DNA of 64,000 nucleotides from Bacteroides sp. (GTDB lineage: Bacteria > Bacteroidota > Bacteroidia > Bacteroidales > Bacteroidaceae), in assembly GCA_021202275.1 (NCBI GenBank), contig JAJQDI010000021.1, positions 1-64,000 on the forward strand. Reading direction: 5' to 3'. The notes under the pieces are model-generated. The model had not been told where the DNA came from. It did not search any database and saw only the letters and a program-made list of their open reading frames with translations. Every line of letters begins with the position of its first letter. The stretch's first letter is position 1. This document shows positions 58,919-64,000 of the stretch, one piece after another. The position numbers and the translations under genes are program-made.

Positions 58919-59004
58919 GAAACTGTTCTGATTTTGTGTTCATTTTAAACTGTATATTCTGTTTTTAAAATGAACATCCCGGAATAGTCGAGAAAATGAA
59001 TAAC

Positions 59005-59050
59005 AAAAAACGAAGAATGAAGAGAGCTACTCCCTTCATTCTTCGTTTTT
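59005..59050. terminator. eno terminator
   Basis: A 17-bp stem (59006-59022 with 59034-59050, AAAACGAAGAATGAAG) with A and T runs. Confidence 0.85.
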
Positions 59051-59951
59051 ATTATATCGCTGCCAGATAGAAATTCATAACCACATTCCAATGAATACTA
59101 TACTCTCAACCTTCTTAACATAGCATGGAAAGTCCAAACATAATACAATACTAAATTTTCTATACTGTTCGCAACATGCAGATCATTCATTAAATAAACT
59201 TACACCTCCTGAATGGGATAGAGTCATAAGAGAAGATGAAGAAATTGTTTACATACTGCTATTTTATTAGCTTTACTGACTGTTGGTTCAAGCTTATTTT
59301 CAGGCCATTTTGTTTTCTTTTTAAAGAGACAACTAATGACCGGTATAGTCAATCCATAGTCTGCGAACTTATAGCAGGCTATTACAAGCCCCAAAAAAGA
59401 AAAAAACAGAAAAAGACAAGACTGTGAAAAGAGAAAACCAACAATGGACATAGTCAAAGTACTAAAAAATCTTCTTTCAAAAATTTAAATACATTCTCCA
59501 ATCGTATATATGTGATATATTCAAGATAATGTATGAGTTAAATTTATTATTTCTATTATATTTTTTATATTTGTAATAGGAATTCTTAAAATAAAACTTA
59601 TATTTGTCAGGAATTCAATATAAATTCAACTAAATGGATTTAACTTGTTATTGTTTAAGCTTAGTTTTTAATTAATACATATGGATAAAACACAAACAAA
59701 TATTCTCGCATAAGAAAACAGCAGATCATTTATATAAAATATCTTTTCATAAGTGAGTACAGCTTTTACCTAAAAAAGTATCAGAAATATCAATATAAAC
59801 AGATAGATCTTTTAGTTCATACATTATATTTTATAATAAAAAAATATGAAATAATTATCTTATCAACAAATTAGATAAAAAGACAATCCATACTTATTTA
59901 CACAATCACGTTGATCTTAAAGAGTAACTATTTTATAACTACAATTAATCC
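59051..59951. other. AT-rich region without a convincing gene
   Basis: About 900 nt separate eno from the C39/VKOR fusion. A plus-strand frame at 59236 (MKKLFTYCYF...) has a short hydrophobic reading in another frame (AILLALLTVGSSLF), so a decayed small membrane or leader peptide is possible but not supportable. TATATTTG boxes occur at 59566-59573 and 59599-59606, candidates for the promoter of the fusion gene with a leader of about 340 nt. Confidence 0.3.
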
Positions 59952-61517
59952 ATGATTTCCAATAAATTAAGCAATGTTTTTACTTCTACTCTCTTTTTTC
60001 TGAACGTAAAACACACCAAACGATATTCTGATCTTTTTTATAATGAACATCCACATAAATATAATTTATTTGGTTTGTCTAAAATGCTGTTCGATTATGG
60101 CATTAACAATGGTGGCATAAAGATTGAAAACAAAAACTCAGATATATTTGATATACAAACTCCTTTTATCGCACAATTAGGAGACGTATTTACCTGTGTA
60201 CATGATGTAGACTCTAAGAAGGTCTCTTATGTATGGAACGGTAAGAAGATGGCTCTTAGCCCGGAGAAGTTTTGTGATTCCTGGACAGGATTTATTCTTT
60301 TGGTGGAGAAGACTGACAATGCAATTGAACCTAATTATACAGAAAATAGACGAAAAGAACTTTTTGTACAGTTGCAACTTATAGCCCTGCTGCTGATTGC
60401 AAGTTGTGTGTTCCTTATGGGTATTTTTTTCAATAAGTTGTATTTGCAGGCATCTTTGATGCCAGGTATACTTATAAATCTAACCGGACTTTATATAAGT
60501 GGTTTACTTGTTCAGCATCAGTTGAAAATTCATAATAAATATGCAGATAAGATCTGCTCTGTATTTCATAAAAGTGACTGTAACAATATTCTGTATACGA
60601 AAGAGGCTAAATTCATGGGGTTGATCAGTTGGAGTGAAGTAGGATTTAGTTATTTCCTTTCCAATCTTATCGTTTTCATATTTTTCCCTGAAGCTCTTCC
60701 TGTAGTAGCATTATGCAACGTGATGGCACTTCCTTATACTGTCTGGAGTATATGGTATCAGAAATTCAAAGCCAGACAATGGTGTACTTTATGTATTTGC
60801 ATACAGCTAATTATCTGGTTGTTTTTTATCACCAGTGTAGTATTCAATTATTTCTTTCTATTCACTATTTCCTGGATGAGTGTGTTTACTGTGATCGCTA
60901 CGTATATTGTCTCTTTCATCTTACTTGATACAGGAGTAGCTATATGGGAACAGAAAGGAAAAACGGGAAGTGCTTTACAAGAGTTGAATAGTTTGAAAGC
61001 AAATGAACAGATATTTTCTTTACTACTCCAACAACAAGCTTATCATAAAGTAGATAGACATACCTCTTCTGTTTTGTTTGGTAATCCTGATGCCAGACTG
61101 CTTGTTACCATTCTTACCAATCTGTATTGCAGTCCGTGTGCAGGTATGCATAAACGGGCGGAAAATCTATTGGAAAGTTCAGAAGATTCTATTTGTATAC
61201 AATATATTTTTTCTGCATTTAGCGAAGATCTTACATCCGCTAATAAAAATCTGATAGCTGTCTATCTCCAGAAAGATGGAAAAGAAGCAAAAGAAATATA
61301 TAACAAGTGGTTTGAAGGAGGAAAGAAAATGCAAGATAATTTCTTTGCTGATCTGGAGATTAATGCGAATGATCCTGATGTGAAAGCCGAGTTTGATAAA
61401 CATGAGGAATGGAGAAATCGTACTCAGATCAGCGCCACTCCTACCATTTTAATAAACGGCTATCAATTACCGGAAAACTATAAAATAGAAGATTTAGCTT
61501 TTATTACAAACATATAG
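59952..61517 (+). CDS. Degenerate C39-like / vitamin K epoxide reductase / thioredoxin fusion
   Basis: A 521-residue membrane protein. Residues 1-120 follow the C39 peptidase fold used in bacteriocin exporters (PFIAQLGDVFTCVHDVD...LSPEKFCDSWTGF), but the N-terminal catalytic Cys position is T-S-T, so it should not cleave. Residues 135-330 hold about five to six helices of a VKOR domain with Cys pairs C202/C210 and WCTLC (278-281). Residues 370-521 form a thioredoxin/DsbA-like domain with CSPC (393-396) and the cis-Pro loop SATPTI. VKOR oxidises the Trx domain and so makes disulfides in exported proteins. The peptide gene 100 bp downstream, with six Cys, is a likely substrate. The region is AT-rich. 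Confidence 0.8.
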   Translation: MISNKLSNVFTSTLFFLNVKHTKRYSDLFYNEHPHKYNLFGLSKMLFDYGINNGGIKIENKNSDIFDIQTPFIAQLGDVFTCVHDVDSKKVSYVWNGKKMALSPEKFCDSWTGFILLVEKTDNAIEPNYTENRRKELFVQLQLIALLLIASCVFLMGIFFNKLYLQASLMPGILINLTGLYISGLLVQHQLKIHNKYADKICSVFHKSDCNNILYTKEAKFMGLISWSEVGFSYFLSNLIVFIFFPEALPVVALCNVMALPYTVWSIWYQKFKARQWCTLCICIQLIIWLFFITSVVFNYFFLFTISWMSVFTVIATYIVSFILLDTGVAIWEQKGKTGSALQELNSLKANEQIFSLLLQQQAYHKVDRHTSSVLFGNPDARLLVTILTNLYCSPCAGMHKRAENLLESSEDSICIQYIFSAFSEDLTSANKNLIAVYLQKDGKEAKEIYNKWFEGGKKMQDNFFADLEINANDPDVKAEFDKHEEWRNRTQISATPTILINGYQLPENYKIEDLAFITNI

Positions 61518-61619
61518 ATGTTGACACTATCTGTACTATTGCTAAGTTGTAAGGCAATAGAATAATAATCTGATCAATTATTATTGTCTTTTTACAACAT
61601 CATAAAAAAATAATAAACC

Positions 61620-61796
61620 ATGAAAAAAATTAATTTGAAAGGAATTTCAGAAACTCTTAGTGAAAAAGAACTGAAAAATGTTATGGGAGGTAGTGGAAGT
61701 TCAAACGGTTGCCCTACAGGACAGACTAAATGTATTTGTAATGGAGCAGATAAAGGCTGTGTATCCTCTTTACAGGCTTGTTGGAATAAGTGTTAA
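61620..61796 (+). CDS. Double-glycine leader peptide precursor with six-Cys core (RiPP/bacteriocin-like, GG-Bacteroidales type)
   Basis: 58 residues, not in standard calls. Leader: MKKINLKGISETLSEKEL then KNVMGG, with LSEKELKNVMGG matching the Bacteroidales double-glycine leader (TIGR04149-like). Cleavage after G24 leaves a 34-residue core with Cys at 31, 38, 40, 47, 54 and 58, plus Gly/Ser/Asn. It lacks Cys in the leader, and the core is hydrophilic. An even number of Cys and the neighbouring VKOR-Trx gene suggest disulfides; radical SAM modification is known for the leader class but no such enzyme is visible in the window. Role (toxin, signal) unknown. The ATG is preceded by AATAATAAACC. 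Confidence 0.75.
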   Translation: MKKINLKGISETLSEKELKNVMGGSGSSNGCPTGQTKCICNGADKGCVSSLQACWNKC

Positions 61797-62002
61797 ATAC
61801 AATCCAATAGCTTACCGGGAAGTACAGTAGGTTTATTTCCAATAATAAAATTAGGGTAACTGCATTTATAAATTATAATATAAATAACTATTAATATGAT
61901 TTTGTTTATTCAGACTCAAGAATATGCATCATTGTAATCAGAGATTTGCATATATAATATATTTTGATGTGGTTACCCTATATGATAAATTTGAGCGAAG
62001 AA

Positions 62003-63438
62003 ATGAAGAATGTGCCATTGTGTGTTATTTTTTCCATGTTATTTTCTATGCCTTGTTTTGCACAAAACAAGATTTTAAATATAAATTTTCCTGACTCTGT
62101 AAAAGAGAAGGAAATAATAATCCATTATTCAATAGGAGAGATACTTAATTATTTTTATGAGCCTTATTTGTTTAAACAAAAGACACATACAAATAATCTC
62201 TCAGTGAGTATTCCGGATTCGGTTGAAACGATTTTATTGGAAATTTTTCCTACAAATCAATATGAATGGGGTAAAAACGTGGTCTTGTATATGAACACTA
62301 AAGGTCAATATACTATCGATATTGATTCTGTGAATCCTCCACTATTTAGGGGGGAATTGTCTGCCTTGCATCGGTTCATGTACAATTTAAAAAATGGTAG
62401 TGGTGTAAAAAGGGCTGAGTTTACAGAGCAAAAATTCATGAATAAGACCCCACTCATATCTTTTTATGATTTTATGGATAAAGAAATTGATACTGATATA
62501 GCTAGTCTTGATCAATTATATCAGAAAAATCAAATAGATAAACACTCATACTTTTTTGCCAAAGATCAAGTAGTGGATGATTATTTATTTCGTGCAGCAC
62601 TACTTGCGCAGTCGCCTGAAAAAAATATTTTCTAAAATTGATTCATTAAATTTTTATAGAGATTTAGATAGACTTTTTAAAAAGTATCATACAATATATA
62701 AATGGGGTATATCTGTAATCCCAAAGGCTGAACTAAAGTCAAGAGAACTGATTTCTTATGAAAGATTAGATTTAGGTCTGGATTCTATATTTAGCTTAAT
62801 CTCATTGTTAAATAAAGAAGAGCAAGAAATTGTTGCTGCATCTGAAATCATAACAAATACATCTATCGGTTTATTAGATTCTATTCAATTAAATACTTAC
62901 CGAAATCTCTATAAAGAGAAATTTCCAAATAGTATGTATAATCAGTCTCTCACCAATCTAAAATCATTAACAAAAAAAAGAGTATATCCTGGCTCAATTT
63001 ACAATAGAAAGTGGATTTCATGATTATGGAAAATTTGAGGTAGATGATTTATGTAAAATTACAGGAATGATATTTGGAGAAAAACCTGTTTTTGTTGACT
63101 TTTGGGCAACATGGTGTGGACCGTGTATAAAAGAATTTGAACATAGAGAAGCATTGGAGCAATTTTTATCTGAAAATAACATTGGATTGTTATATGTTTC
63201 TCTTGATTTTTCTGGTGCATTTAACAATTGGAAAGAAACCATACAAGAAAAACAATTGGAAGGATTTCATTATTTAGCAACTGAGAAGTTCGGTGCAAAA
63301 TTACCATATTTTGAGAAAGATGCGAGCATTCCACGTTATATCCTCTTAGATAAAACCGGGGCTATATTAATAGAATATGGTGAAACACCAAGTTCAGGAA
63401 GACTTATTCCTCAAATTAAGAATGCATTAGGGCTATGA
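62003..63438 (+). pseudogene. TlpA-like thioredoxin protein, broken by two A-tract frameshifts
   Basis: One gene in three frames. Part 1 (62003-62635) starts MKNVPLCVIFSMLFSMPCFA, a signal peptide, then a beta-rich N-domain like those before Bacteroidales TlpA domains. At 62619-62625 (A7) the frame moves to part 2 (to 63023), a helical linker. At 62972-62979 (A8) it moves again and part 3 ends at 63438 as a thioredoxin domain: VFVDFWATWCGPCIKEFEHREAL with CGPC, and IPRYILLDKTG. Removing one A at each tract gives a single protein of about 478 residues. It would reduce or shuffle disulfides in the periplasm. I chose the ATG at 62003; upstream ATGs in frame (61964, 61982) precede no signal. Confidence 0.8.
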
Positions 63439-63555
63439 AAAAAATGGCAATCTGATTATAGTCAGTTACTTTTTTACAGATAAAATATTTCACTGAAACT
63501 ATACTGTATTAATTACAGAATATGCAATCGGAACTATTAGGAAATTAAAACACTC

Positions 63556-64000
63556 ATGAATAATCCAAATAATAATATAGCTTTTATCATTGTCTGGATC
63601 GGAGATTGGCCCTGGTACTTTTGTTACTTTATCCATACTTGTGGATACAATCCCAATATTGATTTTTACATTCTTACAGATAATAATATATGCCCTGAGA
63701 CTATTCCTTCCAATGTAAAATTCATCTCTTATTCTCAGGAACAATTTTCCGGAGATGCGACCGCTGTGTTGGGATTAGAAATTAATCTTACACATGGCTA
63801 TAAACTTTGTGACTTTAAACCAGCATACGGCTACATTTTTAAAGATTTAGTTAAAGACTATGATTTCTGGGGTTATTGTGATATTGATCTGATTTGGGGA
63901 AATATACGCAAATTCATGACAGAAGAATTATTGGATCAATATGATGTGATAAGTGCAAGGCATGATTACCTCACCGGTTGTTTTGCTCTTTTCAGAAATA
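63556..64000 (+). CDS. DUF6625-like glycosyltransferase-type protein, truncated by the window edge
   Basis: The frame opens at the ATG at 63556 and is still open at 64000 (148 codons). MNNPNNNIAFIIVWIGDWPWYFCYFIHTC, then KLCDFKPAYGYIF and DYDFWGYCDIDLIWGNIRKFM. The last two are typical of DUF6625: the (D/W)-x-C-D-I-D-L-I-W-G block looks like a nucleotide-sugar DxD site of a GT-A fold, seen in polysaccharide and some peptide-modification loci. It starts 117 bp after the TlpA-like gene. The 3' end, substrate and the rest of the locus lie outside. Confidence 0.65.
   Translation, partial: MNNPNNNIAFIIVWIGDWPWYFCYFIHTCGYNPNIDFYILTDNNICPETIPSNVKFISYSQEQFSGDATAVLGLEINLTHGYKLCDFKPAYGYIFKDLVKDYDFWGYCDIDLIWGNIRKFMTEELLDQYDVISARHDYLTGCFALFRN

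Follow-up and report, generated by a model that had tools for sequence, protein, structure and literature searches.

How a bacterium could place disulfide bonds, which are normally formed outside the cytoplasm, in a small Cys-rich peptide while it still carries its leader is the question raised by an AT-rich island in Bacteroides sp. (GCA_021202275.1, contig JAJQDI010000021.1), which lies at the end of a stretch of 64,000 nucleotides analysed here as the window, namely the first 64000 bases of its contig in an assembly of 4.43 Mb. The island harbors, on the plus strand, a gene for a 521-residue fusion of a C39-like domain, a vitamin K epoxide reductase (VKOR) and a thioredoxin domain (59952..61517), predicted to be a dedicated peptide oxidase, and the gene of a 58-residue precursor peptide (61620..61796) with a 24-residue double-glycine (GG) leader and a 34-residue core containing six cysteines. 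The answer that we consider rather probable is a widespread system of the Bacteroidota, in which a leader-held Cys-rich peptide is acted on by the dedicated fusion oxidase facing the cytoplasm and is then cleaved and exported by a peptidase-containing ABC transporter (PCAT). Given a little better than an even chance is the fuller proposal that the fusion is a natural bacterial cytoplasm-facing VKOR-thioredoxin oxidase, guided by a dead leader-binding peptidase domain, which would introduce three disulfides before export into hypervariable peptides; it would be the disulfide counterpart of leader-guided modification in ribosomally synthesized and post-translationally modified peptides (RiPPs), serving a conotoxin-like family of constant leaders and variable cores.

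The leader of the window peptide ends in LKNVMGG and scores 25.5 bits against NCBIfam TIGR04149, whose cut-off is 25, and the same label was given to four of the five six-cysteine peptides tried against NCBIfam. A search for relatives yielded 200 proteins at E<=1 from 201 candidates, its own one included, and the best 120 of the 200 were listed and read. Among these listed relatives the leader is nearly constant, a typical one being MKKINLKGISEILSEKELKNVMGG, and the cores are hardly alike except in their cysteines; the comparison of sequences thereby establishes a ribosomal precursor in which a double-glycine leader that barely varies precedes a variable Cys-rich core. The leader residues V, L and L at positions -4, -7 and -12 are identical to those of the leader bound by LahT, which is described as gripping V-4, L-7 and L-12 of its own leader (PMC6363468). 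Inspection by eye found no export signal in the leader, which would therefore be met in the cytoplasm. For the core, no solved structure emerged as a convincing relative; the best match, carnobacteriocin B2 (E 0.005), aligned with the leader portion of the profile.

The cysteines of the cores come predominantly in even numbers. Among the 119 distinct cores of the best 120 relatives, 109 were even and 10 odd, while 44 of the 46 distinct cores beside fusions, which had been selected for at least four cysteines, were even and 2 odd, giving 153 even and 12 odd in 165 distinct cores combined (p 2.6e-32). None of twelve other residues favoured even numbers at p<0.05, and several favoured odd ones, an excess that arises because cores without the given residue were uncounted. 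These counts ignore sequence kinship, and neither kinship nor the search method is expected to create an even bias. Such parity is the trace that would be expected of disulfide pairing. The spacing of the cysteines is highly diverse, with 105 patterns in 115 six-cysteine cores, 96 of them found once, which makes the family a large natural set of six-cysteine miniproteins.

The fusion protein gave Pfam matches to C39 (PF03412, E 3.8e-5), VKOR (PF07884, 1.7e-11) and Thioredoxin_4 (PF13462, 1.4e-10), and it possesses the features of a VKOR-thioredoxin oxidase, that is, the VKOR fold, a loop cysteine pair, a CxxC motif and a thioredoxin CxxC; C202, C210, C278, C281, C393 and C396 are invariant in an alignment of 32 fusion proteins, and at least 914 proteins match the fusion in a database search. 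Its C39-like domain covers about residues 1-123 (59952..60320), six predicted membrane helices occupy residues 129-349 (60336..60998; hydropathy and model helices), and a thioredoxin/DsbA-like domain extends over about residues 361-521 (61032..61514), all on the plus strand. A preliminary description, made from the letters of the window alone, had taken the C39 domain to be catalytically dead, which is confirmed by the absence of both catalytic residues: across the family the catalytic Cys is kept in 1 of 139 fusion proteins versus 17 of 18 PCATs, and the catalytic His in 3 of 139 versus all 18. The C39 fold itself is retained, with a structure match to a leader-bound peptidase, and a domain of this fold devoid of the catalytic residues belongs with the C39-like domains. 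Moreover, the fusion profile aligns with PCAT1 across the linker into the first helix. In the AlphaFold model the helices run over residues 129-160, 169-190, 227-244, 246-273, 279-297 and 308-349; the VKOR core accounts for four of them, an additional one precedes it, and the last links it to the thioredoxin domain. One fusion in the collection (L118, 892-2550) keeps DCGPSC and lacks the catalytic His, being a possible intermediate between a PCAT and the dead domain. C39-like/VKOR proteins devoid of the thioredoxin domain were also seen (L076-L079, L081-L088, L093, L094 and L096), many of which, where a name is given, are labelled as Muribaculaceae or Porphyromonadaceae metagenome-assembled genomes (MAGs); no separate thioredoxin partner was found for these 15, several of whose loci offer less than 1.6 kb downstream.

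The linkage of fusion and peptide was followed across genomes by scanning the GTDB genome collection with the 32 aligned fusions, which gave 166 relatives; the best 80 led to 79 loci with up to 10 kb per side, and 78 were left after L018, sharing its contig and open reading frame (ORF) coordinates with L017, had been dropped. A strict peptide filter (leader ending in GG or GS, at least four cysteines) retrieved 47 peptides encoded on the same strand as the fusion, distributed over 34 loci, against 2 on the opposite strand, and a looser one admitting three cysteines retrieved 61 and 10; in L038 a clear six-cysteine peptide lies on the opposite strand, outside the strict filter. Short fusion ORFs occur at 15 of the 78 loci, 12 of them without a thioredoxin domain and 3 (L062, L071 and L074) cut by the locus end, L074 having a peptide. 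The fusion is followed by 1 kb or more of sequence in 55 of the remaining 63 loci, and a strict peptide was found in 30 of these 55, in 22 within 400 bases of the fusion stop, by a filter that misses likely peptides such as those of L022 and L046.

In a sample of 393 genomes of the order, the fusion (E<=1e-40) was present in 15, the peptide model (E<=1e-3) in 25 and both in 11, so that the peptide accompanies 11 of 15 fusion genomes versus 14 of 378 others (Fisher p 7e-12, a guide only, as the model derives partly from fusion-adjacent peptides, the genomes are related and some matches are other GG peptides). Tandem arrays of Cys-rich GG peptides with a different leader (MRKLKLSLKKEIISDLEA...) and no adjoining fusion were observed at L162, L163, L166 and L168 in two genomes, with a LanC-like gene and an ORF of 741 aa next to two of these four; they look like another RiPP class, and some matches behind the 25 peptide-model genomes are therefore from another family. 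Few genomes of the order (19 of 393) have a VKOR, and a C39-like domain was found in 19 of 24 VKOR loci outside the genome of the window, so VKOR looks here to be mainly a tool of the peptide system.

These numbers bear on the proposal that the fusion is a general oxidase lying by chance near short ORFs, the peptide not being its substrate. The many fusion loci in which no peptide was detected are what it would predict, yet the strand bias of 47 to 2 with the peptide directly after the fusion, the genome co-occurrence, and the scarcity of VKOR together with its usual C39-like companion all run the other way and leave it scarcely credible. The interpretation offered in the preliminary description is supported, and the association of fusion and Cys-rich GG peptide that it proposed to look for was borne out across the Bacteroidota. 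The pair was also met in a Spirosoma plasmid (Cytophagales) and a Sphingobacterium MAG, and a Parabacteroides distasonis record presents, in order, a VKOR family protein, a 59-aa peptide with six cysteines after an AG site, a DUF4369 protein, a LanC family protein, two glycosyltransferase-like proteins and a PCAT. Seven plasmid records contain a relative, two of them from P. distasonis with housekeeping genes and maybe pieces of chromosome. A phage origin was considered and rejected, only 1 related locus being found in viral contigs among 56 pattern-matching stretches. Some taxonomic labels are probably errors of MAG binning, as L054 (labelled Bacteroidales) nearly equals L055 (labelled Oscillospiraceae), and L033 and L075 are labelled Oscillospiraceae and Paenibacillus.

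The genes that follow the peptides are also recurrent. Directly after the 47 strict peptides stand 44 distinct ORFs, one peptide having no next ORF and two pairs sharing one; 37 of the 44 were scanned, two exporters, one opposite-strand ORF, one of GLPGLI type and three large ORFs being omitted. Thioredoxin_8 was found in 19 of the 37, six-bladed propeller families in 15 and radical SAM in 1. At L019, L044 and L063, which carry two, three and two strict peptides, respectively, a separate thioredoxin-type gene stands behind every peptide. Among further neighbours, 104 of 108 were scanned (fusions, PCATs and HlyD proteins were excluded, and four ORFs of L055 were omitted, L054 being a near copy); LanC-like and glycosyltransferase families were the commonest, and radical SAM was not among the 25 commonest families and therefore accounts for at most 2.

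Such neighbours invite the suggestion that another chemistry, radical SAM or lanthionine, modifies the peptides, and that the fusion merely sets the thiol state of the precursor. The leader does score as TIGR04149, an 'rSAM-modified RiPP', and LanC-like domains occur in many sister loci; those of the five proteins scanned, however, are joined in one chain to glycosyltransferase domains from several Pfam families (L052 12649-14562, L053 4801-6996, L040 3353-5641, L035 5709-7676 and L045 13779-15500). The proteins of the window cluster gave no match to LanC, nor to a LanB or LanM dehydratase, and a radical SAM protein, which the preliminary description proposed to look for past 64000, had no match among the 11 cluster ORFs scanned. 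Together with the rarity of radical SAM beside the peptides and the strict even-cysteine bias expected of disulfides, these results render that chemistry highly doubtful. The radical-SAM label suits the leader and not the window cluster, and the name TIGR04149 is therefore not to be read as a function. An ORF of 276 aa was also tried as a LanB-like candidate (L005 10059-10889) and set aside, three members each giving no match worth keeping in Pfam or NCBIfam.

The side of the membrane on which oxidation would take place was approached through the helices and the loop charges. The count of six helices would put the C39-like and thioredoxin domains on one side. Lysine and arginine (K/R) residues in the loops were counted by a custom script in 120 of the at least 914 database proteins and in 20 C39-bearing VKORs from the sampled genomes, with a charge score defined as K/R in the loops lying on the cytoplasmic side of normal VKORs minus K/R in the redox-cysteine loops; 30 VKORs without a C39 match, from loci of the 30 best-matching genomes, served as control (34 were tried, and L109, L126, L131 and L187 were unplaceable). 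The score was negative in 140 of 140 C39-VKORs (means -5.2 for the 120 database and -5.9 for the 20 genome proteins) and positive in 28 of 30 controls (mean of the 30, +6.2), the 20 differing from the 30 with a Mann-Whitney p of 2e-8. The two control exceptions are L208, a frame-broken C39 fusion, and L201, a short VKOR. The L201 protein (1483-1968), from another genome of the Bacteroidota, has no C39 domain, a hydrophobic stretch before the core and reversed charges, and is possibly a second inward-facing VKOR. K/R residues are more numerous before than after the extra helix in 137 of 140 sequences, equal in 2 and fewer in 1, and this fits the extra helix being the cause of the orientation flip. 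The C39 domains of PCATs are cytoplasmic, and the leader is cut there. Based on the six helices, the reversed K/R distribution and the cytoplasmic place of PCAT C39 domains, the cytoplasm is probably the side to which the oxidase, the thioredoxin domain and the C39-like domain are turned.

Known bacterial VKOR-Dsb oxidases act in the periplasm, and the same peptide system could accordingly be imagined with the usual VKOR orientation, in which the redox sites and the thioredoxin domain are periplasmic, oxidation follows export, and the C39-like domain, given six helices, is a periplasmic dock for the exporter or the uncut precursor. The TlpA-type and propeller partners lend this arrangement some weight, as 30 of the 37 proteins scanned have an export-signal-like hydrophobic N-terminus and look exported. 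It would nevertheless demand that an N-terminal tail of about 130 residues without a signal cross the membrane, it sets the charges against the positive-inside rule in all 140 sequences, and a fold that binds leaders would have little to do in the periplasm, since PCATs cut the leader in the cytoplasm; we regard it as unlikely, though not far-fetched. The premise of the preliminary description that VKOR-Dsb fusions form disulfides in exported proteins is probably wrong here, the charges pointing to the cytoplasmic side.

A mechanism with oxidation inside the cell can be sketched as follows. The C39-like domain, which probably goes back to a PCAT peptidase domain and has lost the ability to cut, would hold the leader, and the fusion, as judged from linkage, would be the dedicated oxidase of the peptide. 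Electrons would travel from the core thiols to the thioredoxin domain, on to VKOR and to menaquinone. The adjoining PCAT with its live C39 domain would then take over the leader, cut after GG and, by homology, export the folded peptide together with the HlyD protein. Cytoplasmic glycosyltransferases may decorate the peptide, and the TlpA-type or propeller protein might, speculatively, be a peptide-specific partner, perhaps an isomerase or an immunity protein. The role of the product would most likely be antagonism between Bacteroidota, as for the bacteroidetocins. A dead peptidase domain that holds the leader would be a good way to aim an otherwise dangerous cytoplasmic oxidase.

Several points weigh against this reading. 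The relatives of the peptide were found through shared words, mostly words of the leader, so the constancy of the leader is overstated. No strict peptide was found in 25 of the 55 fusion loci in which 1 kb or more follows the fusion, or in any of the 12 loci of thioredoxin-less C39-VKORs, which counts against the preliminary description as well. The orientation is deduced from the positive-inside rule together with the number of helices given by a custom script and one model, so that the assignment of the redox site to the side opposite the periplasm is a prediction; the model has a pTM of 0.50, and its domain arrangement is not to be trusted. Of the 30 controls, 27 come from other classes of the phylum, L108 and L110 are from the same order, and one is L208. 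Leader binding by the C39-like domain is predicted, as are the oxidation and the activity of the peptide. Finally, broken reading frames affect both the TlpA gene and the other three copies of the fusion in the source genome.

The remainder of the window cluster was read past the window end in coordinates of the same contig. As the preliminary description had noted, the fusion and the six-cysteine GG peptide share one strand of AT-rich DNA with a thioredoxin-type gene and with a gene that it called glycosyltransferase-like and that Pfam places in DUF6625. The island (59000..64000, no strand assigned) has a GC content of 0.26-0.34 versus 0.44-0.52 in the 5 kb before it, with a drop from 0.47-0.48 (57-59 kb) at its edge; beyond the window the AT richness is milder, with a GC content of 0.37-0.43 (64-70 kb), before values of 0.52-0.53 (70-72 kb) and 0.38 (73-74 kb). 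The TlpA/AhpC-type thioredoxin-fold gene 3' of the peptide (about 61964..63438, plus strand) was recognised at first by family correctly and by extent wrongly, as the part taken for it, 63067-63438, is the last portion of a gene in three frames, broken twice in the assembly; a 516-aa homologue from L023 aligns in three collinear pieces (E 1.7e-105), and the frame changes adjoin A runs at 62619-62625 (7 A) and 62972-62979 (8 A). The DUF6625 gene (63556..64000, ending at contig 64395, plus strand) matches PF20330 at E 2.1e-49 for the window part and 7.7e-60 for the whole; glycosyltransferase-like was solely its earlier label. An exporter with an active C39 domain had been expected past 64000, and contig 64392-66620 does encode a PCAT whose C39 peptidase domain, at the N-terminus, has both DCGPTC and the catalytic His. 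Behind it come the genes of an HlyD-type protein (66617-67924) and of a GT2/GT7C glycosyltransferase (67965-68969), and lastly an ORF of 276 aa (69058-69888) that matched no family; all are on the plus strand. The cluster ends near 69.9 kb, where the main ORFs switch strand and GC climbs to 0.53.

The source genome contains four VKOR genes, each locus having a GG-leader ORF. L007 repeats the layout with a PCAT, an HlyD protein, a short LanC-like gene and a glycosyltransferase-like gene. L008 and L009 carry two-cysteine GG peptides and share, by sequence, rows of flanking genes, which we take to be of GLPGLI and TonB types; they represent a second context for the same oxidase. Each of these three other fusion copies is split over two reading frames, and frame changes were noticed by eye near runs of 7-8 A or T (L007 ~11714 and ~13085, including the L007 peptide, L008 ~7925 and L009 ~10088). 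Breaks at A/T runs may reflect assembly error, decay or slippage, which are indistinguishable here. No VKOR match was obtained in two sampled genomes from the same genus, and the island therefore looks accessory.

Among known systems, the clusters of the bacteroidetocins (class IIf) resemble the window locus in combining a GG-leader Cys peptide with a PCAT and a thiol oxidoreductase; they are described as consisting of a 5-transmembrane protein, peptide, thiol oxidoreductase and PCAT (PMC6671954). According to the same source, Bacteroides is without general disulfide machinery and the cluster oxidoreductase likely oxidises the bacteroidetocin, whose disulfides were inferred from gel mobility. 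The leader has 15-16 residues there and 24 here, and four cysteines in A and B and at least two in others (PMC6671954) compare with mostly six in the present family; compared by description, theirs is a four-gene cluster with the 5-transmembrane protein, and a C39-VKOR-thioredoxin fusion goes unmentioned in the parts of that source at hand. The window locus seems to follow the bacteroidetocin principle with a different oxidase. TIGR04149 was built for peptides beside SPASM maturases (PMC8939145), and the GG-Bacteroidales radical SAM peptides have in common with the present ones the leader family, the PCAT and, in sister loci, LanC-like and TIGR04157 glycosyltransferase genes (PMC8939145, PMC4573289); in contrast, the fusion here replaces the radical SAM enzyme, and the cores mostly have even cysteine numbers. 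A survey of Bacteroidales RiPPs reports rSAM, LanC, YcaO and LanM clusters, and the words thioredoxin, disulfide and vitamin K are absent from its main text (PMC10352776); among the open-access papers listed in literature searches, none has a title or abstract opening that names the fusion together with GG peptides.

The HlyB-type exporter C39-like domain likewise has the peptidase fold without the catalytic Cys and recruits substrate, although it is joined there to an ABC exporter and here to an oxidase (PMC6363468). Compared with the Synechococcus VKOR (3kp9/4nv2), the fusion adds a first helix, the C39-like domain and reversed loop charges. Inverted VKOR and inverted DsbB are engineered or archaeal and are not known to have a leader-docking domain or a peptide substrate. 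An inward oxidase made safe by leader holding, if true, would explain how an anaerobe runs such an enzyme and would provide a ready tool for producing disulfide-rich peptides in bacteria. Inverted VKOR and inverted DsbB are named as cytoplasmic disulfide catalysts in E. coli in work on CyDisCo (PMC5471842), which gives Hatahet and Ruddock 2013 as its source, and a redox site directed toward the cytoplasm is the property that the fusion would share with them.

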